Source of the DNA: Candidatus Vecturithrix granuli
Lineage (GTDB): Bacteria > Moduliflexota > Moduliflexia > Moduliflexales > Moduliflexaceae
Assembly (NCBI GenBank): GCA_000739535.1
Contig: DF820463.1
Coordinates: 505,377 to 544,490 of the forward strand
DNA: 39,114 nucleotides
Direction of reading: 5' to 3'
A program made the translations under genes and the position numbers. Positions 9,154 to 38,834 of the stretch are shown here, piece by piece. The notes beneath the pieces were generated by a model, which saw only the letters and a list, made by a program, of their open reading frames with translations, made no database searches and was not told where the DNA came from. Within the stretch, counting starts at the first letter, position 1. Every line of letters starts with the position of its first letter.

Positions 9154-9154
9154 T

Positions 9155-20803: not shown

Positions 20804-21748
20804 ATGGAAAAAATTTTACACATAAGCAAAGAGGTACCCGAAGAAAATGGATCGAATTTACAAAATGGCGACAATTTCATTCGCCGATTGCAAACTCGCT
20901 ATTCGTCGCTGAGAAAATCAGAAAAAAGAATTGCCGATTATTTACGGCAAAATTCTCAACAGCGTTTAGATATGTCCATCACGGAATTTGCCAAATTTCT
21001 TGATGTGAGTGAAGCCACGATCAGTCGTTTCTGTCGGGCTGTCGGCTTTCGAGGGTTTCAAGACCTTAAACTCTCTTTAGCCACATCCATCAATATAACG
21101 GAAGAATTTCAAAATATTCCGCGAGATATTCATCAGACGGATTCGACGACTGAAATTGGCAAAAAATTGGCTGATACACTTTCCGGCGCAATTGCTGAAA
21201 CTCAAAAAAGTTTGAGGATAGATGATATTGATGCTGCGATCGATGCGCTTGCACATGCCAGACATATCACCCTGTACGGTATCGGCGGCTCTTCGATTAT
21301 TGTCTATGCTGCGCATCACCTTTTTGCTAAAGCCGGTCTGAGCTGCGGCGTGTATGTGGATGGGTATATGCAAACCGTAACCGCCTCGATGATGAACTCC
21401 GAAGGGGTTGCGCTGGGGGTGTCCAATACCGGGATGAGCAAACACGTCGTGGATGCCCTGGAAATTGCCGCATCAAAAGGGGCTACGACGATCGGGATCA
21501 CCAGTAACCGCGACTCTGCCCTTGCCAGAGCTTCGACAATCTGTCTGGTGACGCCTCCAGGCCAGAGAGACGTTCCGCTGTATGGCGGGTCGATCGAGGC
21601 CAAAGTCTGCCAACTCTATATTCTCGACCTGCTGTACCTCGGTATCTTATTCAAATTGGGAAATATTACCAAAAAGAATCTGAAAGAGACCGCGAATGCG
21701 TTGAGAACCTATTACAATCCGATTAATTATATTGGAGACCTTAAATAG
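20804..21748 (+). CDS. RpiR-family transcriptional regulator (HTH + SIS)
   Basis: A 314-residue regulator with an N-terminal RpiR helix-turn-helix (about 25-100; ITEFAKFLDVSEATISRFCR) and a SIS sugar-phosphate-binding domain (about 130-265; LYGIGGSSIIVYAAHHLFAK and VALGVSNTGMSKHVVDALEI). Members sense phosphosugars and control neighbouring sugar genes. It heads the carbohydrate/BMC locus and lies 41 bases before the dehydrogenase gene, so it probably controls this locus in response to the product of the FGGY kinase. The operator was not identified. No Shine-Dalgarno site precedes the ATG, and the next in-frame Met is inside the HTH domain. Confidence 0.9.
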   Translation: MEKILHISKEVPEENGSNLQNGDNFIRRLQTRYSSLRKSEKRIADYLRQNSQQRLDMSITEFAKFLDVSEATISRFCRAVGFRGFQDLKLSLATSINITEEFQNIPRDIHQTDSTTEIGKKLADTLSGAIAETQKSLRIDDIDAAIDALAHARHITLYGIGGSSIIVYAAHHLFAKAGLSCGVYVDGYMQTVTASMMNSEGVALGVSNTGMSKHVVDALEIAASKGATTIGITSNRDSALARASTICLVTPPGQRDVPLYGGSIEAKVCQLYILDLLYLGILFKLGNITKKNLKETANALRTYYNPINYIGDLK

Positions 21749-21789
21749 AGAGGTTTTTCTCAAAAAACAGAGTATAAAGGAGATGTCGC

Positions 21790-22788
21790 ATGAAAGTGTT
21801 AGCCATTGGTGATATGTTTATTCCGGCCGAGTTCATGCATACCGGTCTGGAAAAACTCCGTGAAAAGGGATGGCAGGTTGATGTCAGGGAATGGAAACAT
21901 GCCACTCTGACGGATTTACAGCATGATAATCTGCTGGTCGAACAACAAGGACCGGAAGCGCTCGACGTGCCGGAAAATTTAGTAGAGGGGATCGAGGAAT
22001 ATGAGATCCTTGTCATTCAGTTTTTTCCCATCAATAAAAGGATCATTGACCGGGCAAAAAAGCTCAAATATATCTGTGTACTTCGTTCAGGAACAGAAAA
22101 CATTGATAGTGCTTATGCCGAAGCTCAAGGCATTGAAGTACTCAATACTCTCGGCAGAAATGCGAGATCTGTCGCGGAATTTACACTGGGAATGATTCTG
22201 GCGGAAATGAGAAATATTGGCCGTGCTCACGCTGCTCTGAAGGCAGGAGAGTGGCGGAAGGATTTCCCCAACAGTGAGGCCATCCCCGAATTATATGAAA
22301 AAACTGTCGGCTTGATCGGATTTGGCAATATCGGACGTCTTGTCGCTCATTATCTGCACGCCTTTGGCAGCAAAGTTGTGGTGTATGATCCTTATATCAA
22401 AGAACCGCCAGCGGGAATTACATTGGTATCTCTTGAAGAACTCCTGAAAATTTCGGATGTCGTCTCAATCCATGCCCGACTGTGTGACGAGACCTATCAC
22501 TTGATTGGTAAAAAAGAATTCGCCCTGATGAAACCGAATGCCATTTTCGTCAATACCGCTCGTTCCGGCCTGGTGGATGAGGCGGCGTTGATTCACGCCC
22601 TTGAAAATAAACAAATTATGGGAGCGGCGATTGATGTCTTTGATAAGGAACCGATCGAGAGCAATCATCCTTATCTCAAATTGGATAATATCACGCTTAT
22701 TCCCCATTTAGCAGGCTCAACCAGAGATGCGTTTGCCAACAGCCCTAAAATGATGGCGGAAAAATTGATCAAAAAATTTGAGTTATGA
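21790..22788 (+). CDS. D-isomer-specific 2-hydroxyacid dehydrogenase
   Basis: A 332-residue NAD(P)-dependent oxidoreductase with the D-2-hydroxyacid dehydrogenase fold. The Rossmann motif is GFGNIG (177-182) with the acidic residue in VVVYDP. The catalytic residues are R258 (NTARSGLVDE), E287 (IDVFDKEP) and H306 (IPHLAGST), so it should be active. AAAGGAGA precedes the ATG. The FGGY kinase follows 30 bases after its stop. A dehydrogenase of this class beside an FGGY kinase recalls the Bacillus subtilis yoaD-yoaC pair. The substrate is probably a sugar acid or its keto form rather than 3-phosphoglycerate, since no ACT domain is present. Confidence 0.88.
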   Translation: MKVLAIGDMFIPAEFMHTGLEKLREKGWQVDVREWKHATLTDLQHDNLLVEQQGPEALDVPENLVEGIEEYEILVIQFFPINKRIIDRAKKLKYICVLRSGTENIDSAYAEAQGIEVLNTLGRNARSVAEFTLGMILAEMRNIGRAHAALKAGEWRKDFPNSEAIPELYEKTVGLIGFGNIGRLVAHYLHAFGSKVVVYDPYIKEPPAGITLVSLEELLKISDVVSIHARLCDETYHLIGKKEFALMKPNAIFVNTARSGLVDEAALIHALENKQIMGAAIDVFDKEPIESNHPYLKLDNITLIPHLAGSTRDAFANSPKMMAEKLIKKFEL

Positions 22789-22818
22789 ATCCGATGGTGC
22801 ATGGAAGGAGAGGTGGCT

Positions 22819-24330
22819 ATGTCGAAATATGTTTTAGGTATTGATAACGGTGGCACGGTGATTAAGGCCGCCCTCTACGATCTGACGGGGCACGAAGTCG
22901 CAGTTGCGAGTTCGAAAGTTGAGATGAATATCCCTGAACCAGGCTATACCGAACGTGATGCCGAGGAATTGTGGGAAGCGAATGTCCGGGCAATTGCCGG
23001 AGTCGTCCAACAATCCGGGATCAATACCGGCGATATTGCCGCAATAGCCACAACAGGTCATGGTAATGGTCTCTACCTCATTGGTCAAGACGGGACTCCC
23101 GTCTATCCTGGTATCTATTCAACCGATGTAAGAGCACAAGGATACGTTGACAGGTGGTACGCAGACGGCACCTTTGATACCGTGCTCCCTAAAACCATGC
23201 AATCGATCTGGGCGGGACAGCCGGTCGCTTTGCTCGTCTGGTTTCAAGACCATAAGCCGGAAATCTTAAAAAAAGTCCGTTGGATATTTATGTGCAAGGA
23301 CTATATCCGCTACCGCCTGACCGGTGAAGCTTATGCGGAAATCACTGATATGTCAGGATCGAATTTGATGAATGTCAGGGATGTAACCTATGATCGGGAA
23401 TTACTGCGGGAATTTGGCCTTGAAAACTGTTTCGAGATGCTGCCTCCGCTCAAGTATTCGTCCGAGATTTGTGGAACAGTCAATCAGGAAGCAGCCCAAA
23501 AAACCGGCTTAAAGGTAGGAACTCCGGTGGCCGGAGGGTTGTTTGACATTGACGCCTGTGCAATTGCTACCGGCATTACGGATGATGAGAAGTTTTGTAT
23601 TATTGCCGGGACATGGAGCATCAACCAATATATCAGCAAACAACCGATCGTTTCAAAATCCCTGTTTATGACATCGCTCTATTGTGTGCCGGGATATTGG
23701 CTAGCAACTGAAGCAAGCCCGACTTCGGCCAGCAACCTCGAGTGGTTTGTGACGGAGTTTTTAGGAGACAATTACGCACCAATCGCCGGATCGGGCAAAT
23801 CGGTCTATGATTTATGTAATGAGTGGGTCGAGAGTATTGCCCCTGAAGAGACGCATATCATCTTTCTCCCCTTTCTGTACGGCTCAAATGTGGAGGCTGG
23901 CGCAAAAGCCTGTTTTATCGGCTTAAAAGGGTGGCATCATAAAGCTCATATTCTCAGAGCACTGTATGAAGGGGTGGTGTTTTCACACAAGATGCACATC
24001 GAAAAATTACTGGCCTATCGGGACATGCCAAAAGTTGCTCGAATTACCGGAGGAGCCGCCCGTTCAGAAGTCTGGTGCCAGATGTTTGCCGATGTCTTGC
24101 AAGCTCCGCTCGAAGTTATGAGCGGCACAGAGTTGGGAACACTGGGAGCCGCGATGTGCGCCGGAGTGGCGACCGGCCATTTTCCGTCATTGGAGCGCGC
24201 GTCGGAAAACATGGTGCAGGTGGTACGCACGATTCTGCCCAATCCTGACAACAAAACCATTTATGAGGAAAAGTACGCCAACTATAAGAAGACGGTGGAA
24301 ACGCTGGCATCGTTGTGGAAGCATGTCTAA
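22819..24330 (+). CDS. lyxK: FGGY-family carbohydrate kinase, LyxK-like (L-xylulose/3-keto-L-gulonate type)
   Basis: A 503-residue ATP-dependent sugar kinase. The N-terminal lobe starts YVLGIDNGGTVIKAALYD and contains PGYTERDAEELW; the middle has GTPVAGGLFDIDACA; the C-terminal lobe has ATEASPTSASNLEWF, FLPFLYGSN, YEGVVFSHKMH and ITGGAARSEVWCQMFADV. From memory these blocks match Escherichia coli LyxK closely, better than XylB, AraB or GlpK, so an L-ketose or keto-sugar-acid substrate is the best guess. The start at 22819 is set by AAGGAGAGG (22805-22813); an ATG at 22801 lies upstream of that site and is rejected. It would create the phosphosugar sensed by the RpiR regulator and committed to later steps. 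Confidence 0.85.
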   Translation: MSKYVLGIDNGGTVIKAALYDLTGHEVAVASSKVEMNIPEPGYTERDAEELWEANVRAIAGVVQQSGINTGDIAAIATTGHGNGLYLIGQDGTPVYPGIYSTDVRAQGYVDRWYADGTFDTVLPKTMQSIWAGQPVALLVWFQDHKPEILKKVRWIFMCKDYIRYRLTGEAYAEITDMSGSNLMNVRDVTYDRELLREFGLENCFEMLPPLKYSSEICGTVNQEAAQKTGLKVGTPVAGGLFDIDACAIATGITDDEKFCIIAGTWSINQYISKQPIVSKSLFMTSLYCVPGYWLATEASPTSASNLEWFVTEFLGDNYAPIAGSGKSVYDLCNEWVESIAPEETHIIFLPFLYGSNVEAGAKACFIGLKGWHHKAHILRALYEGVVFSHKMHIEKLLAYRDMPKVARITGGAARSEVWCQMFADVLQAPLEVMSGTELGTLGAAMCAGVATGHFPSLERASENMVQVVRTILPNPDNKTIYEEKYANYKKTVETLASLWKHV

Positions 24331-24509: not shown

Positions 24510-25538
24510 ATGAAAAAATTGGGTATTGGTATTGTGGTCGTATTTGTAGTCAGTGCATTAGCTTTTTCAGTGTGTGCACAAGAAAAAAAATCGCCGTTCA
24601 TCGGTGATCCGGAAGAAACCTATTACATGTGTGTGATGGTGTCTGGGGTGGAATACTGGTTCCCGGTCTATGAAATGTTTAAACAAGCAGGGCAACAATT
24701 AGGCGTCAAAACGGTGTATACCGGAACGCCGGAGTATGATGTCAACAAACAGATTGCGGTGTTTGACCAGATTCTTGCTAAAAAACCTGCCGGAATTTTG
24801 CTCCATCCAATGAATTCTGATCCCTTTATCGAGCCTATTAATCGGGCGGCTGAAATGGGGATTCCTGTTGTCACGTTCGCTGCTGATTCTCCTCTTAGTA
24901 AGCGGGTGTCATACGTAACTTCAGATAATTACAAAGAGGCCGCCCTTGCTGCGAAGTTTATCGCAGAGGATATGGGAGGAGTCGGAGAAGTTGCTGTACT
25001 TGAAAACCCGGGCCAGGATAACCATGATCGGCGGACAAATGGTTTTATTCAAAGTATAGAAGCAAACTATCCCAAGATGAAGGTCGTGGGTCGGGTCGCG
25101 TGCAATCAGGATCCGAACAAAGGCTATCAGGCTGTGTTGACCCTCGCACAAGCTCATCCGGAACTAGGCGCGGTGTTTATGCCTGAGGCCGTAACGGCGA
25201 TCGGAGCCGCTCAGGCTGCGAAGGAACTGGGTGGCAAGATCAGAGTTGTCTGCTGTGATGTGAGCGTGAAAATCCTGGATATGATTAAGGCCGGCGAGAT
25301 TTTTGCCGCTATCAACCCAGATCAGGGCGTTCAGGGATATATGGGAATGTTGCTGCTCTATCTGGCAAAGCACTCTGATATGATCGATCCGATGAACGAC
25401 TGGAAACAGGCCGGATATAACCCAATGTCTGTGCCCTATCTGGATAACGGCATGCACGTTGTCAACAAAGACAATGCGGACTTTTTCTACTGGGAAAAAT
25501 ACCTGGCACAAAGAGGCACCAAAGGGATCAATGAGTAA
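24510..25538 (+). CDS. CUT2-type sugar ABC transporter substrate-binding protein (transporter 2)
   Basis: A 342-residue periplasmic binding protein (Peripla_BP_4). The signal peptide is about 1-23 (VSALAFSVCA before QEKK), without a lipobox. The mature part shows QIAVFDQILAKKPAGILLHP (82-101), INRAAEMGIPVVTFAADSPL and GVQGYMGMLLLYLAKH, typical of ribose/xylose-type binding proteins. AAGGAGA lies upstream of the ATG. It opens the operon with the ATPase at 25680 and a single permease at 27210. The ligand is unknown; the adjacent LyxK-like kinase and 2-hydroxyacid dehydrogenase suggest a pentose, ketose or sugar acid. Confidence 0.88.
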   Translation: MKKLGIGIVVVFVVSALAFSVCAQEKKSPFIGDPEETYYMCVMVSGVEYWFPVYEMFKQAGQQLGVKTVYTGTPEYDVNKQIAVFDQILAKKPAGILLHPMNSDPFIEPINRAAEMGIPVVTFAADSPLSKRVSYVTSDNYKEAALAAKFIAEDMGGVGEVAVLENPGQDNHDRRTNGFIQSIEANYPKMKVVGRVACNQDPNKGYQAVLTLAQAHPELGAVFMPEAVTAIGAAQAAKELGGKIRVVCCDVSVKILDMIKAGEIFAAINPDQGVQGYMGMLLLYLAKHSDMIDPMNDWKQAGYNPMSVPYLDNGMHVVNKDNADFFYWEKYLAQRGTKGINE

Positions 25539-25560
25539 TATACGCGCATGCGCATGGACG

Positions 25561-25653
25561 GAGAAGTGGTGGAATGCCACCGCTTCTCTGAAAGATTAGA
25601 GGAGTGCAAAATTTATCTTGTAGGCTTCTGAGGGCAAACTAAAGTTTGCCCTC
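25561..25653. repeat. Two hairpins between binding-protein and ATPase genes (transporter 2)
   Basis: The first stem is 25561-25572 with 25577-25588 (GAGAAGTGGTGG, one G-T pair, 4-base loop). The second is 25630-25640 with 25643-25653 (GAGGGCAAACT, perfect, AA loop). Neither has a T tract, so they are more likely mRNA-stabilising or processing elements than terminators. The second lies 12 bases upstream of the ATPase Shine-Dalgarno site (25666-25673). Confidence 0.65.
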
Positions 25654-25679
25654 CAATCCGAGAACGGGAGGGACTTCCC

Positions 25680-27176
25680 ATGAGCGAGGAAATTGTTTTA
25701 GAAGTCAAAGGCATTGATAAAATATTTCCTGGGACTAAAGCGCTATCCGAGGTGAATTTTCAACTTCGCAAGGGAGAAATTCATGCCCTGGTTGGGGAAA
25801 ATGGCGCCGGAAAATCAACGTTAATGAATGTGATTGGTGGAATTCATCAGCCGGATGCCGGAGAAATTTTTGTCAACAATCAACATCGGCAGATTCGAAA
25901 CCCTCTTGAGGCTCAACAATGTGGGATTGGGTTTGTCCATCAGGAGATTGCGTTATGCCCGCATGTTACTGTCGCCGAAAATGTGTATATGGCGGCAGTG
26001 AATACTAGCAGGAAGCTTTTTGTCAATTATAAGACACTCTACAAAAAAACCACAGACGTTCTCAAATCGTTACATTCGATTAAACCGGATATAAAAGTCA
26101 AGGATCTCAGCATCTCTAACCAACAGGTGGTGGAAATTGCCAAAGCCTTGATCCTGAATTGTAAAATTTTGATCCTGGATGAGCCTACGGCGGCTTTAAC
26201 CGAAAATGAAACCAAAGCCCTGTTCAAGATTATGCAAGATTTAAAAAAACAGGGGATGAGCATTATCTATATCAGCCATCGTATGGCGGAAGTGTTTGGA
26301 CAATGTGACAGAGTATCTATTCTCAGAGATGGACATTATGTCGGAACCTATGTTGTGGCAGAAAGCACGTCGCAAGATGTGGTAAACAAGATGGTGGGCC
26401 GGGAGATCGGGGATATGTACCCATCGAAAATGGATGAAGAGGAAGATGACACCCGGGTGCTATTGGAAGTCAGACATCTGTCAAATAGTAACCGATTCAA
26501 AGATATTAATTTCAAGCTCTATAAAGGGGAAATTCTGGGACTTGCCGGATTGGTTGGAGCCGGAAGAAGCGAAGTCGCGAAGGCGATCTGTGGGCTCTAT
26601 CCGAAAGAAAATGGAGAGATTCTCTTTAAAGGAAAGCCTTTAGAGATTACCCAATATGAAGATGCTATCAAAAACGGGATTGTGTACTTGACAGAAGATC
26701 GCAAGGCAGAAGGGGTGTTCCTGGATTTGCCCCTCAAGCAAAATATCTCCGCGATGGATATCAAACAGGTATCATCGAAGGGATTTATTGACAAGAAGAA
26801 GGAAAATCGCCAGGCACGCAGTCTCTTAGAAAAACTGCGCGTGAAATACAGTTCTCTTTCTCAGAAAGCCTCTTCTCTTAGTGGTGGGAATCAACAGAAA
26901 TTGCTAATCGCCAAACTCTTATCTGTCAAGCCTGCTATCGTTTTAATGGATGAACCTACTCGCGGAATTGATGTAGGGGCCAAAGCAGAGATCCATCGGT
27001 TGCTTCGAGAACTGGCGATCCAGGGGATTGGCGTTATTATGATCTCTTCGGAACTGCCAGAAGTTATCGGAATGTGCGACCGGGTGTTAGTGATGCATGA
27101 GGGGACTCAATGTGGGATTCTGACCAGGGATGAAATCACAGAAAAGCGGATTATTCATCTCGCTTCCGGTTTATAA
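25680..27176 (+). CDS. CUT2-type sugar ABC transporter ATP-binding protein, tandem NBDs (transporter 2)
   Basis: A 498-residue fused double ATPase of the RbsA/XylG/MglA class. NBD1: Walker A GENGAGKST (39-47), signature LSISNQQ, Walker B ILILDEPTAALTENE. NBD2: degenerate Walker A GLVGAGRSE, signature LSGGNQQKLLIAK and Walker B IVLMDEPTRGIDVGAKAEI, fully conserved unlike transporter 1. The GGGAGGGA site at 25666-25673 sets the start. It energises the single permease encoded next, which presumably works as a homodimer. Confidence 0.92.
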   Translation: MSEEIVLEVKGIDKIFPGTKALSEVNFQLRKGEIHALVGENGAGKSTLMNVIGGIHQPDAGEIFVNNQHRQIRNPLEAQQCGIGFVHQEIALCPHVTVAENVYMAAVNTSRKLFVNYKTLYKKTTDVLKSLHSIKPDIKVKDLSISNQQVVEIAKALILNCKILILDEPTAALTENETKALFKIMQDLKKQGMSIIYISHRMAEVFGQCDRVSILRDGHYVGTYVVAESTSQDVVNKMVGREIGDMYPSKMDEEEDDTRVLLEVRHLSNSNRFKDINFKLYKGEILGLAGLVGAGRSEVAKAICGLYPKENGEILFKGKPLEITQYEDAIKNGIVYLTEDRKAEGVFLDLPLKQNISAMDIKQVSSKGFIDKKKENRQARSLLEKLRVKYSSLSQKASSLSGGNQQKLLIAKLLSVKPAIVLMDEPTRGIDVGAKAEIHRLLRELAIQGIGVIMISSELPEVIGMCDRVLVMHEGTQCGILTRDEITEKRIIHLASGL

Positions 27177-27209
27177 GAAGCATACATCACATAGAGGAGG
27201 GGTTGTGTT

Positions 27210-28223
27210 ATGGGGGGTATTATGGAACAAGAAGGGCAACAAGGATCACCAGAAGCACCTGGTGGAAAACTGACAAATATCATCAGGAAATTTGAGGGTT
27301 TCAGAGAAGGAACTCTGATTTTGATCATCATCTTTGTTTGTGTGGTAATGAGTTTTGCGTCACCCTACTTTTTGACCTGGCCCAGTATCAAGGCTATCTT
27401 GCTCTCGTTTTCGACAGAAGGGATTGTGGTCGTAGGGATGACCATTATGCTGATTGTCGGGGGGATTGATCTGTCAGTAGGAGCCGTCATGGCTCTTTCC
27501 ATGGTCATAGCGGGTAAACTGTTTCTATTAGGGTTAAACCCCTGGATAGCCAGTCTGGTTTCTATTATGATTTGTGGTCTCATTGGAGCTGCAATCGGAC
27601 TGTTTGTCACCCAATTAGGATTAAGCCATTTTATCACAACCCTGGCTTTTATGGGGATTGCCCGGGGCGCCTGCTATGTAATTACGGAGGGAACCCCGTT
27701 ATCCCTGTACACCCTACCGCCGAGTTTCAAGTTTATTGGACAAGGGAACATTTTTAAAAATCTTCCTTTCGTTATAGTCATCTTTTTCATTATCGTGATC
27801 ATCAGTGACTATTTTTTAAGAAATTCGACGCTTTTGCGGAAGGTATTTTACACGGGCAGCAACGAAAAGGCGGCGATGTATTCCGGGATTAACGTGTCAA
27901 AAGTGAAAATCGCTGTGGCAATGCTGTGCTCGTCGCTGACAGGACTTGCAGGTATTATCTTTATGTCGAAATTTGGGGCAGCGACTGCTAATTTTGGGAC
28001 TGGCCTTGAATTGACCGCCATTTCTGCGGCGGTCATTGGCGGCGCCAGCCTGACAGGTGGAGAAGGGACCGTCTTTGGCTCTATCCTGGGGATCGGTCTG
28101 GTTGCGACTATTACCGGCTCGATGATCCTGATGGATGTCTCAGTCTACTGGCAGGAGTTGATTAGAGGCTGCATTTTATTGACCGCAGTATCGCTCGATC
28201 ATCTCCGTCATCACAAAAAATAA
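27210..28223 (+). CDS. CUT2-type sugar ABC transporter permease (transporter 2)
   Basis: A 337-residue BPD_transp_2 permease. A 30-residue cytosolic N-terminus precedes the first helix (LILIIIFVCVVMSFA). Family marks are IVGGIDLSVGAVMALS (about 85-100) and AAVIGGASLTGGEGTVFGSI (about 270-289). Start ATG 27210 is preceded by GAGGAGGGG; a second in-frame ATG at 27222 is a weaker alternative. Only one permease gene is present, so a homodimeric channel is expected, as in ribose systems. The aldo-keto reductase gene follows 18 bases later. Confidence 0.9.
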   Translation: MGGIMEQEGQQGSPEAPGGKLTNIIRKFEGFREGTLILIIIFVCVVMSFASPYFLTWPSIKAILLSFSTEGIVVVGMTIMLIVGGIDLSVGAVMALSMVIAGKLFLLGLNPWIASLVSIMICGLIGAAIGLFVTQLGLSHFITTLAFMGIARGACYVITEGTPLSLYTLPPSFKFIGQGNIFKNLPFVIVIFFIIVIISDYFLRNSTLLRKVFYTGSNEKAAMYSGINVSKVKIAVAMLCSSLTGLAGIIFMSKFGAATANFGTGLELTAISAAVIGGASLTGGEGTVFGSILGIGLVATITGSMILMDVSVYWQELIRGCILLTAVSLDHLRHHKK

Positions 28224-28241
28224 ATAGGGAGGAAAAGATTT

Positions 28242-29273: not shown

Positions 29274-30023
29274 ATGGAATTAGGATTACAAGGCAAAAAT
29301 GCGATTGTGACAGGGGCAGCAGGAGGAATCGGAAAGGCGATTGCCCTGGCTTTGAGCGAAGAAGGAGCGAATGTAGCCATTGGCGACATTCGTGATGCCG
29401 ATGATGTTGTCCGGGAATGTGAACAATTTGGCGTCAAAGCGGTGTCAATCCCAACTGATTTGACGAAAGCTGATGATTGTATCAACCTTGTCAAGAAAGC
29501 GGAAGAAAGTCTGGGACCGATCGATATTTTGATCAACAATGCCGGTTTATGGCCGACCAATTTAGTGAAGGATATTCCATTGCAAGAATGGCATAAAACA
29601 GTTGATATTAATTTAACTGCCGTGTTTTTAACCTGCCAGGCTCTGGTGCAAAAAGTCCTGGCGGAAAAACGGAAGGCAAAAATTTTAAATGTGACTTCAC
29701 AAGCGGCATTTAATGGGTCAACCACCGGACACGCCCACTATGCGGCGAGTAAGTCCGGTGTGGTTACATTTACAATTTCACTTGCCCGCGAGGTCAGCAA
29801 GCAGGGGATTAATGTCAATGCCATCGCATTGGGTCTTGTGGAAACGGGCATGTCCGCGGAAGCTCTGGCGAAGAATAGAGAATACTATGAAAAACGGATT
29901 ATGATTGGCCGGATTGCGCGACCTGAAGAAATTGCGAAACTGGCAATCTTTTTAGTGTCGGAACCGGCAAACTACGTGACCGGTTCGACTTTTGACGCAA
30001 CCGGCGGAATGCTCTCGCGATAA
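29274..30023 (+). CDS. Short-chain dehydrogenase/reductase (classical SDR)
   Basis: A 249-residue classical SDR. Cofactor motif TGAAGGIG (13-20), acidic D38 after beta2 (VAIGDIRD), which favours NAD(H), NNAG (88-91), catalytic S142 (NVTSQAAF), and Y156 and K160 in HYAASKSG. C-terminal NYVTGSTFDATGGM is typical of FabG-like sugar and polyol dehydrogenases. It probably oxidises a polyol or sugar acid at a secondary alcohol. It is 36 bases after the aldo-keto reductase and ends this transcription block; a 437-base gap follows. Confidence 0.9.
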   Translation: MELGLQGKNAIVTGAAGGIGKAIALALSEEGANVAIGDIRDADDVVRECEQFGVKAVSIPTDLTKADDCINLVKKAEESLGPIDILINNAGLWPTNLVKDIPLQEWHKTVDINLTAVFLTCQALVQKVLAEKRKAKILNVTSQAAFNGSTTGHAHYAASKSGVVTFTISLAREVSKQGINVNAIALGLVETGMSAEALAKNREYYEKRIMIGRIARPEEIAKLAIFLVSEPANYVTGSTFDATGGMLSR

Positions 30024-30114: not shown

Positions 30115-30166
30115 ATGACACAAATGATTTAGGATGTCTATAGAAAGTTTATGGCGTATTTTTTGT

Positions 30167-30199: not shown

Positions 30200-30318
30200 G
30201 CAAATTTGATATATACCCTGGTACTGGTTGAGTTCTGTTGGAATACCTGTGAAAACCAAAATATGCTTGTTTTCCCCACCAATTCAATTGAACCAGCGCA
30301 TCAGGGAGGAGGGAGAAT

Positions 30319-30460: not shown

Positions 30461-31486
30461 ATGAAAAAGATTATTTTATTACTCGTTATAGCAGCTCTGG
30501 TTGTTCCTGCCTCTTATGCGGCAGATAAACCTTTGAAGATCGCGTATTTTGTCTCCGATCTGAAGGTCGGATTCCATCAGGCGCAAGCCTACTGGGCCAA
30601 AATATATGCCAAGGAGCAATATGGGGCAGATGTCCAGGTTTTTGATGGAAAGTCCGATGTCGCTACCATGACCGCAAATATTGATCAGGTCATTGCCCAG
30701 GGTATGGATATGGCCACTCTGCATGTTTGGCAGCCAGAAGCTGCGAAACCCGGCATTGAAGCCGCCCTGGAAAAGGGAATAACCATGGCCAGTTTCTTCG
30801 AGACACAGGCCGTGGATATCCCTGTAGTCAGACATGATGAAGCTGCTGTTTCCTTCCAGATGGGCAAAATTGCGGCGGAACAGTGGAAGAAAGCTCATCC
30901 TGATAAACCCATTGTGTTTGTCCAATTAGGCTGGCCGGATAATGAAGCGGTCGCTGAGGGACGGACGAATCCGTTCGTCGAGGGGGTTTTGTCGGTAGCC
31001 CCGGATGCGAAAAATCTCGGTTGTATGGATGCCAGTAAAGGCGCGGATGCCGCAAAGAAGATCATTCAAGACCTGGTTCAGGCAAATCCGGACCTTTGCA
31101 TCATCTACTCGGAAGCGGCAAATTTGACGGATGGCACCATGCCCGGATTGAGAGCGGTTGGCAGAGGCAAGATGGAGAATGGTGTGCCGTTGACTGAAAT
31201 CGTTGCCAGCGTGGACTGCCCGGAAAACGAGTTAATAGAGATTTACGATCCGAGTTCTTCATTGAAAATGTCACTGGCTCTTCCGCCAAAAGAAACCGGC
31301 ATGTTTCGAATTGACAATCTGATGGACATCAGGAATGGAAAAATTCCGCAGGTTGATCCGGCGAACAAGAAACCACTCTATATTCCGGCTTCTCTCGTTG
31401 GGTATTGGAGCATGAAACCAGAAGAAGCCGTGCAATGGTACAATGAGCAGTTCCAGGCTGAGGTTAAACTGCCTGAATACAAATAA
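30461..31486 (+). CDS. CUT2-type sugar ABC transporter substrate-binding protein (transporter 3)
   Basis: A 341-residue periplasmic binding protein. The signal peptide is about 1-20 (LLLVIAALVVPASYA before ADKP), cleaved by signal peptidase I. The Peripla_BP_4 pattern is present: NIDQVIAQGMDMATLHVWQP (73-92), IEAALEKGITMASFFETQA and DLVQANPDLCIIYSEAANL. It differs from the other two binding proteins in the window (WQPEAAKPG in the ligand-cleft position, and a PDNEAVAEGR segment), so another ligand is likely. AGGGAGGA (30446-30453) precedes the ATG. The operon continues with one ATPase and two permeases. Confidence 0.88.
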   Translation: MKKIILLLVIAALVVPASYAADKPLKIAYFVSDLKVGFHQAQAYWAKIYAKEQYGADVQVFDGKSDVATMTANIDQVIAQGMDMATLHVWQPEAAKPGIEAALEKGITMASFFETQAVDIPVVRHDEAAVSFQMGKIAAEQWKKAHPDKPIVFVQLGWPDNEAVAEGRTNPFVEGVLSVAPDAKNLGCMDASKGADAAKKIIQDLVQANPDLCIIYSEAANLTDGTMPGLRAVGRGKMENGVPLTEIVASVDCPENELIEIYDPSSSLKMSLALPPKETGMFRIDNLMDIRNGKIPQVDPANKKPLYIPASLVGYWSMKPEEAVQWYNEQFQAEVKLPEYK

Positions 31487-31495
31487 ACGTACCTG

Positions 31496-31527
31496 AGACC
31501 TGTCAGGTTCCAAAGCCTGACAGGTCT
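31496..31527. repeat. Hairpin between binding-protein and ATPase genes (transporter 3)
   Basis: A 12-bp perfect stem (AGACCTGTCAGG at 31496-31507, CCTGACAGGTCT at 31516-31527) with an 8-base loop, 9 bases after the binding-protein stop. Only three T residues trail it. The arm is related to the palindrome at 20357-20389. It probably protects the upstream mRNA or attenuates the ATPase and permease genes. Confidence 0.65.
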
Positions 31528-31543
31528 TTCAACGGGGAGTAAA

Positions 31544-33031
31544 ATGATGAGCGATAATGTTCTGGAAATTCAAAACCTGACCAAGGATTTTCCCGGTGTA
31601 AGGGCCGTGAATGACGTCAGTTTCAATATCAAAAGAAATACCGTGCATTGCCTGGTTGGAGAAAACGGAGCCGGAAAATCCACGCTGATCAAAATCCTCA
31701 CTGGCGCTTATGACAGGACGAGCGGGACCATCCTGTTGAACGGGAGCGACTATGAGGCTCATAATCCCAGGGAGGCAAAACAACAAGGGATCAGTACCTT
31801 GTTTCAGGAGTTGAATGTGGTTGACCAACTGACGGTTGAAGAAAACCTGACACTTGGCATGGAGGATACCTGGTTTGGTTTTTTGAAAAAAACGGATAAA
31901 ATTAAAAATATGGTGAATGTGCTGGAAAGCATTGACCCGTCGATCTCCCCAAAACAACGGGTATCGAGTTTGAGTGTCGCCCAAAAACAAATGGTGGAAA
32001 TCGCCCGAGCTGTTGCCTCGGAATCTGATATTATTATTATGGACGAACCGACGGCGGCGATTTCCGAAGAAGAAACGCAGCGGCTCTTTACAATCATCAA
32101 AGGCTTGAAAGAGAAAAATGTGTCCGTGATCTACATTTCCCACAGATTGGATGAAATTTTTAAACTCGGCGATTACGTGACGGTCATGCGTGATGGGAAA
32201 CATATTGATACCAGGCCGCTTTCTGAGGTTAAAGATCGCGCCGAACTAATTAAATTAATGATTGGAAAAACAGTGTATGAACAATATGTTATGAGGAATC
32301 TCGAAAACGCAGAGAATCTGCTGGAGGTCAGCAATATCTGCAACAAAAAGCTTAAGGAAATTTCCTTTCATGTCAAGCGTGGCGAGATCGTGGGGTTTTA
32401 TGGACTGGTAGGGGCCGGGAAAACTGAACTCGCCCGGGCCATATATGGCGCAGACAACTACACTGGTGAGATCGTATTCAAAGGGAAAAAGCTGGAACAA
32501 TCCCCAGATAAAGCGATCAGCGCAGGAATTGCCATGGTGCCTGAAGAAAGAAGAACGCAGGGACTTTTCACGCTTCTCACGATCAGAAATAATATCCCGG
32601 TGATGAATATGCAAAAAATCTCACACGCCGGATTTATTGATGCGAAAAAAGAATGGAACTCCACAGTAGAATATATTGATAAACTGGGGATTATGACAAA
32701 CAGCGTTGAAAAAGAAACTGCCAAGCTTTCGGGCGGAAATCAGCAAAAAGTCGTTTTTTCCAAGTGCCTGTTTGCCGATGCCGATCTGCTCATCCTGGAC
32801 GAACCAACCCGGGGGATCGATGTTGGAGCCAAAAGTGAGATTTACAAAATTATCCGCCAGTTATCAGAAGAAGGCAAATCAATCGTCTTTTGTTCTTCCG
32901 AGCTGCCTGAAATTATGAATATGTGCGACAGAATCTTCCTGTTGTATGACGGAAGAATCAAAGCGGGAATGGCGAATAGTAAAGAGATTGACAGTGAAAA
33001 GATTATTCATATTGTGACAGGGGGCGAATAA
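31544..33031 (+). CDS. CUT2-type sugar ABC transporter ATP-binding protein, tandem NBDs (transporter 3)
   Basis: A 495-residue fused double ATPase. NBD1: Walker A GENGAGKST (39-47), signature LSVAQKQ, Walker B IIIMDEPTAAISEEE. NBD2: GLVGAGKTE, here with a Lys that makes the Walker A motif nearly canonical, signature LSGGNQQK, Walker B LLILDEPTRGIDVGAKSEI. GGGGAG precedes the ATG. Its TAA overlaps the next ATG by one base, so permease translation is coupled. It serves the two following permeases. Confidence 0.92.
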   Translation: MMSDNVLEIQNLTKDFPGVRAVNDVSFNIKRNTVHCLVGENGAGKSTLIKILTGAYDRTSGTILLNGSDYEAHNPREAKQQGISTLFQELNVVDQLTVEENLTLGMEDTWFGFLKKTDKIKNMVNVLESIDPSISPKQRVSSLSVAQKQMVEIARAVASESDIIIMDEPTAAISEEETQRLFTIIKGLKEKNVSVIYISHRLDEIFKLGDYVTVMRDGKHIDTRPLSEVKDRAELIKLMIGKTVYEQYVMRNLENAENLLEVSNICNKKLKEISFHVKRGEIVGFYGLVGAGKTELARAIYGADNYTGEIVFKGKKLEQSPDKAISAGIAMVPEERRTQGLFTLLTIRNNIPVMNMQKISHAGFIDAKKEWNSTVEYIDKLGIMTNSVEKETAKLSGGNQQKVVFSKCLFADADLLILDEPTRGIDVGAKSEIYKIIRQLSEEGKSIVFCSSELPEIMNMCDRIFLLYDGRIKAGMANSKEIDSEKIIHIVTGGE

Positions 33032-34038
33032 TGGCAGCAAAAAACATGGTAAAAGGAACAATGAGCAATGAATCGTTTATTACATTGTCCATGCTGGCCG
33101 TGTTAGCCGGATTATTTATCGTGGCTTCGCTTTTTGTGCCAAGGTTTTTTGATATCCGTACAATCTCCAATCAACTTTCTCAACAGGCGGAACTTATTAT
33201 TCTTGCCATTAGCGTCACATTTATTTTGATTAGTGGCAACTTTGACCTGTCGGTAGGCGGTATCGTTGGTTTAGGCGCTGTCCTTTCCGCATATTTTTGT
33301 CAGCGATCAACTGGGGCTGGGCTGGCGCTGGCGCGTGGGTTGGGCATGCCCTATGGCGTTGCCATCGCGGCAACTCTTGTCTGCTGTATGGGCATTGGCG
33401 CCATCAACGCCTTTTTTGTCACCAGGATGAAGGTCGCCTCCATTATTGTGACACTGGGCACCATGTCGCTGGCGCGCGGTATTGCGCTGATTCTCACCCA
33501 GGGATCTCAACGCAGTTCGGGCCTGCCATACATATACAAAAAGTTTGGGGGATTTTCCCTGATCGGCACCATTAATGGGTCGGTTGTTCTCATGATCATC
33601 CTCATTAGTATTGCACTGATCATTGAAAAAAAGACTGTATTCGGCCGGCGGACGTATTATATCGGCGCCAACCCGATCGCGGCAAAGCTTTCCGGCATCC
33701 AGGTTGAAAAGCATATCTCACTCCTATATTTGGTCAGTTCTTTTTTAGCCGGCGTCGTAGGCGTCATCATGGGGTCCATTCATAATGCGGGGATTTCCAG
33801 CCTTGGTGAGGGGGTCGAATTTGACGCGCTGGTTATTACATTATTGGGCGGAACAAGCATTATGGGTGGATTTGGCTCGGTTCTGGGCACAGTCGTCGGC
33901 GCATTTATCCTGGGCATCTTATCCACCTCGTTGAATATGCTGGGGTTATCTCCGGATATTCAAACAATCGTGAAAGGTGTTGTCACCCTAATCGCGATTT
34001 TGGCGCAGCGGTTTGCTTTGGATCACAGAAAAACGTAA
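33031..34038 (+). CDS. CUT2-type sugar ABC transporter permease (transporter 3, first)
   Basis: A 335-residue BPD_transp_2 inner-membrane permease. Motifs: ISGNFDLSVGGIVGLG, where the usual GGIDLSVG reads GNFDLSVG, and LLGGTSIMGGFGSVLGTVVG near residue 270. About nine hydrophobic helices. It starts in a TAATG overlap with the ATPase gene and ends 25 bases before the second permease. The two probably form a heterodimer. Confidence 0.88.
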   Translation: MAAKNMVKGTMSNESFITLSMLAVLAGLFIVASLFVPRFFDIRTISNQLSQQAELIILAISVTFILISGNFDLSVGGIVGLGAVLSAYFCQRSTGAGLALARGLGMPYGVAIAATLVCCMGIGAINAFFVTRMKVASIIVTLGTMSLARGIALILTQGSQRSSGLPYIYKKFGGFSLIGTINGSVVLMIILISIALIIEKKTVFGRRTYYIGANPIAAKLSGIQVEKHISLLYLVSSFLAGVVGVIMGSIHNAGISSLGEGVEFDALVITLLGGTSIMGGFGSVLGTVVGAFILGILSTSLNMLGLSPDIQTIVKGVVTLIAILAQRFALDHRKT

Positions 34039-34063
34039 GGAATTTAACGAGGAGCAGGAAAGT

Positions 34064-35041
34064 ATGGAAATGTACATGCATATACCAAGAAAGTTCACAT
34101 GGACAGCCTTTAAGGATATCTTTGTGTACCTGGTTCTGGCAGCGATTGTCATCGGATTCAGTACCGTCTCATTAAATTTCTTAAATCCGTATAATCTTGT
34201 CAACATTTTGAGAATGTCCGTCCCAATCCTGTTAGTCAGTTGCGGAGCCACGTTAATCATGATTTCCGCAAATATCGATCTCTCGGTGGGCAGTATGGTC
34301 AGTTTAAGCGGCGTGATGTACTGCATCGGGCTAAAAAGCGGGATCGGGTTTTTCTGGGCCACTCTGCTCACTTTCCTCTTAGGGGTATTAATGGGCTTCA
34401 TTAACGGCCTTCTGGTCATGAAATGGCGCATTGTGCCGGTTATCGCGACTCTGGTTACATTATATCTGTATCGCGGGATTGCCTGGACCTTAACACCTCG
34501 ACAGGTCGGTCTGATTAAAGGCGATATGCCTGAGGGAATTAATGATTTTGGTCGCACCCCCGTGTTTCTGGGTCTGCCATTAGCGTTTTATATCACTGTC
34601 GCGGTTATCGCGATCATGATTGTTGTGCAGCAAAAAACGGTGCTTGGTAAATATACTGCGGCAATCGGCGGCAATAGGACTGCGGCAGAATTATCCGGTA
34701 TCAATGTCATCCGGACCGTCTGGATTTTGTATATCATCACTGGCTTTCTCGCTTCTCTTGGCGGTATTGCCAGAGCAAGTTATCTGTCAATGGGTGACCC
34801 TCAGACGGGCAACCTGATGGAGATGGAAGTTATCATTGCCGTGCTTTTGGGAGGAGCGCGTTTTTACGGCGGTGAGGGGTCTATCATTAAAACCGTCGTT
34901 GGGGCCTTGATCATTATGTGCGTGTCAGTCGGAATGACCGTTTTATGGATTCCGCCCTACTGGCAATCTTTTGTCAGAGGCATCGTACTTATCGGCACTG
35001 TCGCTGTCTATACGCTGATCAAGGAAAAAGTTGAAGAGTAA
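34064..35041 (+). CDS. CUT2-type sugar ABC transporter permease (transporter 3, second)
   Basis: A 325-residue BPD_transp_2 permease. Motifs: ISANIDLSVGSMVSLSGV, a GGIDLSVG variant, and VLLGGARFYGGEGSIIKTVV near the C-terminus. The ATG at 34064 follows GAGGAGCAGGAA (34049-34060); the frame is open further upstream only through the previous gene, so the longer version is rejected. It completes transporter 3, which like transporter 1 has two non-identical permeases. Confidence 0.88.
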   Translation: MEMYMHIPRKFTWTAFKDIFVYLVLAAIVIGFSTVSLNFLNPYNLVNILRMSVPILLVSCGATLIMISANIDLSVGSMVSLSGVMYCIGLKSGIGFFWATLLTFLLGVLMGFINGLLVMKWRIVPVIATLVTLYLYRGIAWTLTPRQVGLIKGDMPEGINDFGRTPVFLGLPLAFYITVAVIAIMIVVQQKTVLGKYTAAIGGNRTAAELSGINVIRTVWILYIITGFLASLGGIARASYLSMGDPQTGNLMEMEVIIAVLLGGARFYGGEGSIIKTVVGALIIMCVSVGMTVLWIPPYWQSFVRGIVLIGTVAVYTLIKEKVEE

Positions 35042-35158: not shown

Positions 35159-35659
35159 ATGCGTACAGTACAGGTAAAAGACTTACAGGTTGAAGCGTTT
35201 TTGCCCTTTGGGTTTTATGCCAATATGATCGATCCGGACACTGAAAAAATAGGAGCGCCGCCGATAGAGTTTTTCAGAGATATGCTCCAACTGGAATTAG
35301 GCAATACGGGACGGGTTTCTTTCGGGGTATGCCGGGTCGAACCACGAGAGCTGATTATTGATGCAACGGAATACCATTCAACGTCCGGGGAAGGGATTCT
35401 GCCGCTTGACAATGATGTCTTGATGTATGTCGCCCCGGCCACGCCCCCGGATGAGCAGGTCCCGTTAGAGAAAATCGAGGTCTTCCGGGTGCCGCAGGGA
35501 ACCCTGGTAGTACTTCGTCCGGGAGTATGGCATCATGGTCCGTTTACAACAAACGGGAAACCTGCCAATATGTTAATCGCGCTTCCTGAACGGCTCTATG
35601 CCAATGATTGCCATGTATTCAAATTAGAGGAGCAAGATCAGATCAAAATAGATGTATAA
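35159..35659 (+). CDS. Ureidoglycolate lyase (AllA)-like cupin-family protein
   Basis: A 166-residue protein with an AllA-like single beta-barrel pattern: EAFLPFGFYANMI (12-24), FGVCRVEPRELIIDATEYHS, DVLMYVAPATPPDE and FRVPQGTLVVLRPGVWHHGP with paired histidines near residue 122. AllA cleaves ureidoglycolate to glyoxylate and urea, but no purine-degradation gene is near. In a sugar locus, relatives of this fold may act as epimerases, isomerases or lyases on sugar acids. GGGGAGGAG precedes the ATG. The exact reaction is unknown. Confidence 0.6.
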   Translation: MRTVQVKDLQVEAFLPFGFYANMIDPDTEKIGAPPIEFFRDMLQLELGNTGRVSFGVCRVEPRELIIDATEYHSTSGEGILPLDNDVLMYVAPATPPDEQVPLEKIEVFRVPQGTLVVLRPGVWHHGPFTTNGKPANMLIALPERLYANDCHVFKLEEQDQIKIDV

Positions 35660-35828: not shown

Positions 35829-36878
35829 ATGGCAGATACGATGAAAGCGGTCATGTATTACGCCCCGAAAGATATCAGGGTTGAAATGATCCCTGTTCCA
35901 TCCTGCGGGGACGACGAAATCCGTGTGAAAGTTGACGCATGCGCTGTCTGTGGGACGGACTTGAAGTCATATAATAGCGGAAATCCCCGGATTAAAGCCC
36001 CATTGCCAATGGGACATGAGTTCACGGGGTTGGTCGAAACCATTGGAAAAAATGTCCAGGGATTCGCCCTGGGAGATCGCATTGTCATGGCCACGACGAT
36101 CTCCTGCGGGGAATGTTACTATTGTAAACGCGGCTGGCGCAATATTTGTGCGAACCTTTCACCCATGAGCTTCGGTTATGCCGGTGGAATGGCGGAATAT
36201 ACGATCATTCCGGCCAGAGCGTTACAGAACGGTCATGTCATTAAAGTTCCCGAAGGGGTGAAAGCCGAACATGCTGCGCTCTCCGAACCGGTCAGTTGCG
36301 CGGTCAATACCTGTGAAATCTGTGACGTTCAAGATGGAGACACGGTTGTTGTGAGCGGCGCAGGGACGTTGGGGATGATTAATGCCTGTGTTGCCAGGGA
36401 ATTCGGCGCGAAAAAAATTATCCTGATCAACCGCTCAAAACCCAGATTGGAACGGGCGCGTTCATTCGGCTTCGATGTCCTGATTCATTCGGAAGAACAG
36501 GATGTGCGTCAGATGATTCTTGATGAAACCGATGGAATCGGGGCCGACGTGGTGATTGTTGCGGCTCCGGCTGTAGAACCCCAGGAACAAGCGATTGATC
36601 TGGTTCGTAAACGCGGAGCGGTCTGCCTGTTTGCTTCGCTCCCGGTGGGAAAAAATATGCTCTCCTTAGACAGCCGGAAAATCCATTATGGCGAGTTGCG
36701 CGTGTTGGGAATCAGTGATTCGACGCCGCGCCATGTGACAAAAGCGGTCGAGCTTATCAGCCAGAACCGCCTGCCGATGGACAAATTGGCAACTCACATT
36801 CTGGGGTTGGATGATATTTTTAAGGCCTTTGACCTGATGCAGAGCGGAGAATCATTGCGAGTCGTGCTGAAACCATAA
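35829..36878 (+). CDS. Zinc-dependent alcohol/polyol dehydrogenase (MDR family)
   Basis: A 349-residue medium-chain dehydrogenase. The catalytic zinc ligands are C41 (VCGTDL), H63 and E64 (GHEFTG). The structural zinc site is C93, C96, C99 and C107 (SCGECYYCKRGWRNIC). The nucleotide motif is GAGTLG (about 176-181). The pattern fits sorbitol, galactitol-phosphate and threonine dehydrogenases; in this context a sugar alcohol or its phosphate is the likely substrate. AAGGAGGAGG lies upstream of the ATG. The 169-bp gap before it holds no gene. Confidence 0.9.
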   Translation: MADTMKAVMYYAPKDIRVEMIPVPSCGDDEIRVKVDACAVCGTDLKSYNSGNPRIKAPLPMGHEFTGLVETIGKNVQGFALGDRIVMATTISCGECYYCKRGWRNICANLSPMSFGYAGGMAEYTIIPARALQNGHVIKVPEGVKAEHAALSEPVSCAVNTCEICDVQDGDTVVVSGAGTLGMINACVAREFGAKKIILINRSKPRLERARSFGFDVLIHSEEQDVRQMILDETDGIGADVVIVAAPAVEPQEQAIDLVRKRGAVCLFASLPVGKNMLSLDSRKIHYGELRVLGISDSTPRHVTKAVELISQNRLPMDKLATHILGLDDIFKAFDLMQSGESLRVVLKP

Positions 36879-36964: not shown

Positions 36965-37756
36965 ATGTTAGGGCATATGAGTATTTCAATCCAGGAGAAA
37001 GTGTGTGTCGTGACCGGCGCCGCTCGCAGCATTGGTCTGGCGATTGCGGAAAAATATTGTCAGGACGGAGCCAAAGTTGCGATGATTGATATTAATCCGG
37101 AAGTCACGAGCCAGGCAGATCGTCTCAGCAGCGCAGGCGCGACCGTCAAAGGATATATTGTGGACATTACCGATCAACAAGCGGTTTTTGCCTGTTTTGA
37201 TGATATTGAAAAAAGGCTGGGACCTGTATTTGCCCTGGTGAATAATGCCGGTCTGGTGGATCAACGGCCATTTGAGGAGAATACGCCCGAACAAATTGAC
37301 AAAATTATGCGGGTGAATGTCAATGGCACAATTTATTGCTCACAAGGAGCGTTAAAAAGTATGAAATCCCTGGGAGATGGTCGTATTATCAATTTCTCCT
37401 CCAAATCCGGCAAAACCGGATCAGCCCTGATGGCCCCCTACTCTGCGGCCAAAGGCGCGATTATTGCGCTGACCCATGCCATGGCCTTTGAATTTGCCGG
37501 GAAGAATATTAAGATTAATTGTGTGTGCCCCGGCATTACCGATGCCACAGGCGTATGGAGCGTTGTCAGCGAAGGATATACCAAAAATTTGCAGATGCCT
37601 CGCGAAGAGGTGATTAAAAAGTTCACGGCGAAAGTTCCGCTGGGCAGATTGACGGAGATTGAGGATATTGTTGAGTTTGTTTATTTCTTGACAGTACACG
37701 GCGATTATTGTACTGGACAGGCGTTCAACATTACAGGCGGGCGAGAAATGCATTGA
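36965..37756 (+). CDS. Short-chain dehydrogenase/reductase (classical SDR)
   Basis: A 263-residue classical SDR. TGAARSIG (17-24) carries Arg-Ser where the usual motif has Gly. D42 after beta2 (AMIDINPE) favours NAD(H). NNAG is at 93-96, catalytic Ser at 145-146 (NFSSKSGK), and Y159 and K163 in YSAAKGA. YCTGQAFNITGGREMH is the usual C-terminal end. The start is uncertain between ATG 36965 and ATG 36977, neither well placed behind a Shine-Dalgarno site. It lies 80 bases before the BMC-T gene and is probably co-transcribed with it, so its substrate may be linked to the microcompartment pathway. Confidence 0.88.
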   Translation: MLGHMSISIQEKVCVVTGAARSIGLAIAEKYCQDGAKVAMIDINPEVTSQADRLSSAGATVKGYIVDITDQQAVFACFDDIEKRLGPVFALVNNAGLVDQRPFEENTPEQIDKIMRVNVNGTIYCSQGALKSMKSLGDGRIINFSSKSGKTGSALMAPYSAAKGAIIALTHAMAFEFAGKNIKINCVCPGITDATGVWSVVSEGYTKNLQMPREEVIKKFTAKVPLGRLTEIEDIVEFVYFLTVHGDYCTGQAFNITGGREMH

Positions 37757-37836
37757 ACCCATGTCATTCCTGGCCTCACGCGAAGATAGAGCGCGCATTG
37801 CCGCTGGGGACGACACTCACAGAAGGGGAAATAACT

Positions 37837-38457
37837 ATGTCAGTTGATTTACGCACCTATGTGTTTTTAGATTCATTACAATACCAGATGGCGTCCTTTA
37901 TTTCGACCATCTCTCGTGGATATTATCCGGTAGCTGAACAAGCCTGCTGTGTGATTGAAATTGCCCCGGGCATTGAGATCAATCGGCTTACGGATATTGC
38001 GTTGAAAGCGACGAATGTGACACCCGGATTGCAAGTAGTCGAAAGGTCGTTTGGCCTGTTGGAAGTTCATTCGGATGAGCAGGCAGATGCGAGACAGGCC
38101 GGGGAAGCGGTATTGCAAGCCCTGGGGAAAAGTGAGACGGATCGTATAAAACCCCATGTCTTGACAAGTCAGTTAATCCGCCATGTCACGGATCATCATG
38201 CTCAATTGATCAATCGGACCCGCTACGGGAATATGGTCTTGCGTGGGGATACGTTGTATATCCTCGAACTGGAGCCGGCCGGGTATGCCTATTACGCGGC
38301 GAACGAGGCCGAAAAAGCCTCACATATTAATATTATTAATGTGCAGGGCTTCGGAAAATACGGCCGGGTGTATATCGCCGGCGATGAGGCCGAAGTTGTC
38401 GAAAGTCGCGAAATTGTCGAGAACCGCCTGGCAATGCTTTCGGGCCGGGAGGAATAA
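37837..38457 (+). CDS. BMC-T shell protein (tandem BMC domains, CsoS1D/CcmP-like)
   Basis: A 206-residue bacterial microcompartment shell protein built of two BMC domains, expected to form pseudohexameric trimers. It begins VDLRTYVFLDSLQYQMASFI. Domain 1 (about 1-97) contains CCVIEIAPGIEINRLTDIAL and VVERSFGLLEVHSD. Domain 2 (about 105-206) contains ILELEPAGYAYYAANEAEKA and INVQGFGKYGRVYIAGDEAE. By recollection this matches the permuted, stacking BMC-T class, which can have gated pores for larger metabolites. Start ATG 37837 is set by AAGGGGAA (37823-37830). It is followed 77 bases later by BMC-H. Confidence 0.88.
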   Translation: MSVDLRTYVFLDSLQYQMASFISTISRGYYPVAEQACCVIEIAPGIEINRLTDIALKATNVTPGLQVVERSFGLLEVHSDEQADARQAGEAVLQALGKSETDRIKPHVLTSQLIRHVTDHHAQLINRTRYGNMVLRGDTLYILELEPAGYAYYAANEAEKASHINIINVQGFGKYGRVYIAGDEAEVVESREIVENRLAMLSGREE

Positions 38458-38534
38458 GTCTGAATATTTTATACGTAAAGATATAACCCTTTTGTTAACA
38501 CAATATAATCGAGAAGAAAGTAAGGAGAAATGTT

Positions 38535-38834
38535 ATGGCAGAACAATATGCAGATGCTCTTGGGATGATTGAAACACGTGGTTTTGCTGCAATGGTGGAA
38601 GCATCGGATGCGATGGTCAAAGCAGCAAAAGTTGAGTTAGTGGGGTATGAAAAAACTGGCGGCGGATTTGTGACCGTTGTTGTCAGAGGCGATGTTGCTG
38701 CGGTTCGCGCTGCTGTTGATGCCGGCGCCCGCGCCGCAGAACGCGTTGGCGAAATCGTCTCAACTCATGTGATTCCACGGCCTCATGCCAATGTTGATAG
38801 TGCGTTACCATTGGGACGTCAAGGAAAAGAATAA
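38535..38834 (+). CDS. BMC-H shell protein (PduA/EutM/CcmK-type hexamer)
   Basis: A 99-residue canonical single-domain shell protein that tiles microcompartment facets: [20 protein letters not shown] (8-27), the edge lysine in MVKAAKVEL, the pore loop [17 protein letters not shown] (38-54) and [20 protein letters not shown]. The pore segment is Thr-Gly-Gly-Gly-Phe, and the short tail ends [16 protein letters not shown] (38522-38528) precedes the ATG. With the BMC-T gene this shows the start of a microcompartment operon; pentamer genes and encapsulated enzymes would have to lie beyond the window. Confidence 0.95.

Follow-up and report, generated by a model that had tools for sequence, protein, structure and literature searches.

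The shell genes belong to a sugar phosphate utilization microcompartment

What kind of bacterial microcompartment (BMC) is encoded at the end of a long run of sugar genes, and do the two work together? The question is raised by a 39,114-nucleotide stretch of the Candidatus Vecturithrix granuli genome (assembly GCA_000739535.1, contig DF820463.1, positions 505,377 to 544,490; hereafter, the window), in which an 18-kb run of carbohydrate genes, all on the + strand, ends in the shell genes BMC-T and BMC-H. Evidence from the downstream genes and from other genomes leads us to propose that this KSB3-related bacterium carries a sugar phosphate utilization (SPU) metabolosome that is probably supplied, via a ketose phosphate, by the carbohydrate/polyol catabolic operon on its 5′ side.

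BMC-T (37837 to 38457) encodes a full-length tandem-domain shell protein resembling CcmP and HO-5816. It starts with the ATG at 37837, not with the TTG at 37708 where the open reading frame (ORF) mechanically begins, and this leaves an 80-bp gap after the short-chain dehydrogenase (SDR) gene SDR2. BMC-H (38535 to 38834) is the only PF00936 match over the cut-off in the 8.4-Mb genome, and the four BMC-P genes that follow it within 3.7 kb are the only such matches to PF03319. The score of BMC-H (109 bits) and the closeness of the four BMC-P genes argue that the shell genes are not there by chance. A run of 236 N bases, either masked sequence or a gap, separates BMC-H from the first BMC-P gene (8492 to 8727 in L002, a stretch of the same contig in which all downstream coordinates are given; window position equals L002 position plus 30623).

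Past BMC-H, the order is BMC-P 1 and 2 (8801 to 9099 and 9215 to 9502), an aldehyde dehydrogenase (AldDH; 9782 to 11206), BMC-P 3 and 4 (11308 to 11586 and 11583 to 11852), RpiB (12010 to 12597), DeoC (12584 to 13384), and a GntR regulator (13517 to 14281). DeoC matches PF01791 and scores 272.5 bits against TIGR00126 (cut-off, 117.3); five further DeoC-family genes are present in the genome, so that the BMC-associated gene is not the sole family member. RpiB matches PF02502 (161.3 bits) and TIGR01120 (139.9 bits; cut-off, 138.65). The AldDH is of the CoA-acylating EutE/PduP type (NF011927, 676 bits; cut-off, 403), and its best-matching PDB chains are CoA acylating as well. All three enzymes carry N-terminal extensions of 35 to 45 residues that resemble encapsulation peptides and are predicted to load them into the shell; an amphipathic-helix score of the N termini (hydrophobic moment) was not significant alone (p about 0.1). 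SPU loci conserve the motif in the DeoC extension, and shell-less orthologues lack it. Extension-free second copies of DeoC adjoin Spirochaete SPU loci (L055 9714, L058 15224, and L068 14979).

The pair of DeoC (pfam01791) and RpiB (pfam02502) is described as common to all SPU subtypes (Sutter 2021, PMC8217296). By the content and order of its core and shell genes, the locus is therefore an SPU BMC with DeoC as its signature enzyme and no new one, and the CcmP-like BMC-T suggests SPU2 or SPU3 as the likeliest subtype. A preliminary description, confined to the window, had proposed an undescribed BMC type. Reading past position 39114 had been set beforehand as the test of that claim, and the claim falls because the 6 kb downstream, with four BMC-P genes, AldDH, RpiB, and DeoC, match a standard SPU locus. 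Aldolase, AldDH, and BMC-P genes were to be looked for there and were found; a phosphotransacylase was also to be looked for, and no PF06130 match (PduL) was detected in the genome. Most of the SPU loci described in Axen 2014 (PMC4207490) contain PduL, which lies outside the shared pair of Sutter 2021 (PMC8217296).

The main-text passages on SPU loci in these two papers do not mention the set of kinase, transporters, and SDRs, which would fit a type not catalogued before, but the supplementary locus diagrams of PMC8217296 may already show some of these accessory genes. Given core and shell genes that are SPU in content and order, we regard a new type as barely credible. The SPU type is already known; what is new is the variant linked to a sugar operon.

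A scan of genome contigs for BMC-T yielded 80 SPU loci, many of them incomplete. The order BMC-H/T, P, P, AldDH, P, P, RpiB, DeoC recurs in most of the close loci that are long enough to display it, and SPU loci with this order are found across Spirochaetes, Bacteroidetes, and Phycisphaerae. The position of the catalytic Cys66 of Escherichia coli RpiB, likewise Cys in a solved PDB RpiB, is Asp in all 61 aligned SPU RpiB rows, with His10, His99, and His134 retained. SPU-clade DeoC proteins retain the catalytic Lys and Asp positions and mostly carry P49S, T77M, and T87R relative to two solved deoxyribose-phosphate aldolases. In some SPU loci (L110, L111, and L120), RpiB and DeoC are apparently fused in one ORF.

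SDR2 adjoins SPU shell genes in several phyla

SDR2 (36965 to 37756), the gene directly before BMC-T, encodes a polyol-dehydrogenase-like SDR. No terminator-like site was found in the gap between the two, a point in favor of supply by the operon. One close SDR2 orthologue was found in each of seven other genomes, and six of these have it immediately 5′ of SPU shell genes: three Spirochaetes (G061, G064, and G059; 67 to 72% identity), two Phycisphaerae (G060 and G062; 46 to 47%), and one member of the Kiritimatiellales (G063; 47%). It was by way of their BMC genes that these six genomes had been identified. When 393 Spirochaetota were searched with SDR2 only, not conditioned on BMC genes, G064 was returned again together with three new genomes, G367, G431, and G313. 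In G367, SDR2 abuts a BMC-T gene at a contig edge, which brings the adjacency of SDR2 and shell genes to seven further genomes in three other phyla. Identity of the shell-adjacent SDR2 orthologues in Spirochaetes overall spans 67 to 74%.

The Spirochaetes G431 and G313 have shell-less clusters in which SDR2, preceded by an orthologue of SDR1 (29274 to 30023 in the window), is followed directly by DeoC. These DeoC proteins are 67 to 71% identical to the BMC-associated DeoC and are without the extension of about 45 residues. In a phylogenetic tree they fall inside the SPU DeoC clade (support, 99/98), grouped with DeoC proteins of SDR2-linked SPU loci (95/76). Since they nest within that clade, the shell-less form looks derived. 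A ribulose-phosphate 3-epimerase gene lies downstream of DeoC in both clusters, and in G431 a gene for a xylose-isomerase-like TIM-barrel protein does as well.

These linkages bear on the published proposal that SPU BMCs are DNA-debris metabolosomes (PMC8217296, PMC4207490). On that account, 2-deoxyribose 5-phosphate would be cleaved to glyceraldehyde 3-phosphate and acetaldehyde, the latter would become acetyl-CoA, and the sugar operon would be a chance neighbor. Consistent with it, our DeoC scores above the cut-off of the deoxyribose-phosphate aldolase model and retains Lys and Asp at the catalytic positions, the SPU locus of the KSB3 genome G001 has unrelated neighbors, and an adenine deaminase gene adjoins a Bacteroidetes SPU locus. 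Chance, however, fails to explain why SDR2 stands 5′ of SPU shell genes in seven further genomes from three other phyla, or why it precedes SPU-clade DeoC in both shell-less clusters. Moreover, it is not evident what an isomerase of the ribose-5-phosphate type would do in the cleavage of deoxyribose 5-phosphate, because C2 of that sugar bears no oxygen. For the locus studied here, we consider an ordinary DNA-debris metabolosome unlikely.

The remaining sugar genes recur with less strict linkage

All genes named in the preliminary description of the run, from RpiR to the shell genes, were confirmed in order and strand. The run opens with an RpiR-family regulator (HTH_6 and SIS domains, PF01418 and PF01380; 20804 to 21748), a D-isomer 2-hydroxyacid dehydrogenase (2HADH; PF02826; 21790 to 22788), and a carbohydrate kinase of the FGGY family (22801 to 24330), assigned by Pfam annotation and comparison with E. 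coli kinases. Calling the kinase LyxK-like was fair: of the three E. coli FGGY kinases used for comparison, LyxK is the most similar (36% identity; XylB, 27%; LsrK, 23%). Yet the protein falls under the cut-off of every curated NCBIfam kinase model. CUT2 transporter 1 follows (24510 to 28223), with substrate-binding protein SBP1 (24510 to 25538), an ATPase (25680 to 27176), and one permease (27210 to 28223), and then come an aldo-keto reductase (AKR; 28242 to 29237) and SDR1. CUT2 transporter 2 (30461 to 35041) has two permeases (33031 to 34038 and 34013 to 35041) in addition to SBP2 (30461 to 31486) and an ATPase (31544 to 33031). An AllA-like cupin (Ureidogly_lyase/DUF4867; 35159 to 35659) and a zinc-dependent dehydrogenase (ZnADH; 35829 to 36878) lead up to SDR2. 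The best PDB match of SBP1 is an arabinose-binding protein and the PDB matches of SBP2 are weak; neither settles the ligand.

The FGGY kinase, ZnADH, transporter 2, and the cupin are also linked to SPU shell genes or SPU-clade DeoC, less strictly than SDR2. FGGY orthologues of 53 to 58% identity occur in four SDR2-linked SPU genomes (G059, G060, G062, and G064). In two Phycisphaerae genomes, FGGY and a 60% identical ZnADH orthologue lie just 3′ of the BMC genes and DeoC. FGGY stands beside SBP2, ATPase 2 (75%), both permeases, and the cupin in G059 and beside both permeases and a contig-edge ATPase 2 (74%) in G064. Another genome, G333, has SDR2, GntR, FGGY, and ZnADH on one contig, and in the shell-less G431 an FGGY kinase gene (51%) and CUT2 genes lie upstream of SDR1-SDR2-DeoC.

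A narrower possibility is that only SDR2, with SDR1, takes part in the compartment pathway, for example, as a partner for cycling NAD(H), and that the kinase and transporters form a separate operon. SDR2 is the most tightly linked gene; several genomes have FGGY and the transporters unlinked to it or on separate contigs; no alcohol dehydrogenase gene lies among the core genes past BMC-H, in a genome in which PduL was likewise not detected; and the 437-bp gap between SDR1 and SBP2 holds a hairpin of 20 pairs (30162 to 30204, + strand), a candidate terminator. The positions of FGGY and ZnADH in the two Phycisphaerae, in G333, and, for FGGY, in G431 speak against this possibility, as does SDR2 itself, which has no encapsulation-type extension in the loci examined. 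We therefore judge this restricted role for the SDRs to be quite improbable.

Several observations weigh against supply of the compartment by the operon. With the hairpin-bearing gap, the run from 20804 to the shell genes may be two transcripts. NCBIfam scores DeoC as an ordinary deoxyribose-phosphate aldolase. SDR2-like adjacency was seen in only 6 of the 80 SPU loci, many of which are incomplete. The FGGY/transporter clusters of G059 and G064 lie on contigs other than those of the BMC genes, these being metagenome-assembled genomes, and several partner genomes are fragmented assemblies of this kind. FGGY orthologues of 48 to 50% identity were found as well in Spirochaetes that gave no BMC-T match, and co-occurrence of FGGY and BMC genes in a random sample of Spirochaetota was not significant (2/17 versus 7/230; p = 0.12); the difference between SPU-sampled and random genomes (p = 0.0003) is confounded by phylogeny and sampling. 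Finally, in G001, the nearest relative, a whole SPU locus sits among ilv genes, and none of the sugar genes is close to it. At the thresholds applied, this genome yielded no orthologue of SDR2 or of the cupin, and its FGGY kinases do not exceed about 31% identity. The feeder is thus not required for an SPU locus, and together with the count of 6 in 80 this indicates that it marks a branch and not SPU as a whole. The metabolic linkage of sugar and shell genes first suggested from the window is supported for that branch by the SDR2-shell adjacency in seven further genomes, the shell-less clusters, and the recurring FGGY, ZnADH, transporter 2, and cupin genes, but it is not universal.

A proposed pathway from sugar uptake to acyl-CoA

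From the enzyme families and the gene neighborhood we infer how the operon and the compartment would work together, including the order of steps, entry into the compartment, cargo loading, the identity of the substrate, the direction of flux, and co-transcription. The CUT2 importers would take up a sugar or polyol, which cytosolic ZnADH, SDR1, and SDR2 and the FGGY kinase would convert to a ketose phosphate; a pentulose 5-phosphate or one of its deoxy analogues is the probable product. The ketose phosphate would enter the shell, perhaps via the tandem BMC-T pore, and be isomerized by RpiB to an aldose phosphate, which DeoC would cleave to glyceraldehyde 3-phosphate and a two-carbon aldehyde. 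AldDH would capture the aldehyde as acyl-CoA. The aldehyde would be acetaldehyde if the substrate is a 2-deoxy sugar and glycolaldehyde if a 2-hydroxyl is present.

A more specific proposal, which we hold as possible and put forward tentatively, is that in the SDR2-linked branch the SPU compartment handles a ketose phosphate made by FGGY and SDR enzymes and not deoxyribose from DNA, that RpiB (Cys66 to Asp) and DeoC have been retuned accordingly, and that the shell-less Spirochaetes keep the pathway after losing the compartment and the encapsulation peptide of DeoC.

The SPU substrate rests on inference, and linked sugar genes offer a clue that goes beyond the guess of DNA scraps and calls the DNA-debris proposal into question for the SDR2-linked branch. 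The transporters, kinase, and dehydrogenases are concrete, assayable candidates for an SPU upstream pathway. If one pathway does occur in shelled and shell-less forms, comparing the two would show directly what the shell adds. SPU is among the most widespread BMC types, with more than 280 members in 26 phyla (PMC8217296).

Comparison with known systems

The locus shares with described SPU loci (PMC4207490, PMC8217296) DeoC and RpiB, an EutE/PduP-type AldDH, BMC-H, BMC-P, a tandem BMC-T, and the three N-terminal extensions; it differs in its 5′ carbohydrate operon, in SDR2 abutting the shell genes, and in the lack of a PduL match in the genome. No paper on an FGGY-linked SPU BMC was found in the literature, and the word "microcompartment" is absent from the KSB3 genome paper (PMC4312070). 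Like the PVM and PVM-like BMCs for fucose and rhamnose, ours is a sugar-linked metabolosome whose pathway leads to an aldehyde and AldDH, but its aldolase is DeoC, and the annotated locus genes include no Pfam match to a PVM-type class II aldolase. The HO BMC of Haliangium has a related tandem BMC-T (HO-5816-like), whereas in our genome the main locus includes four BMC-P genes together with DeoC and RpiB. The Pdu and Eut signatures, diol dehydratase and ethanolamine ammonia-lyase, were searched for in the locus only, and neither is among its annotated genes.

Part of the operon also resembles FGGY cassettes without a BMC. Cassettes on rhizobial plasmids match SBP1 (68 to 70%), the ATPase (55%), the permease (61%), AKR (51%), and FGGY (41 to 43%), and one in CP125156 has a 2HADH (54%) beside an FGGY kinase (53%) and an SDR (45%). 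In both, a DeoC/LacD-family aldolase of a different subfamily from the locus DeoC stands beside the kinase, and the pairing of the rhizobial set with such an aldolase counts in favor of supply of the compartment by the operon. Unlike our locus, these cassettes have no shell gene, RpiB, or CoA-acylating AldDH in the stretches covered. CP125156.1 is labeled a Klebsiella pneumoniae plasmid; at 5.37 Mb, that label is doubtful.

Neighboring genes

DnaJ, GrpE, and DnaK genes lie immediately 5′ of the sugar operon (window 16973 to 20062). Farther upstream, a third CUT2 transporter is followed by an acyltransferase and a response-regulator/PocR/histidine-kinase hybrid protein (window 6226 to 14429), and genes for a Ser/Thr kinase, a PP2C phosphatase, a TPR protein, and a PEGA-domain protein are consecutive (window 1960 to 5758). 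At the other side, the BMC locus is closely followed by pectin-type glycosidase genes of families GH88 and GH28, which lie on the opposite strand (L002 15117 to 18375).

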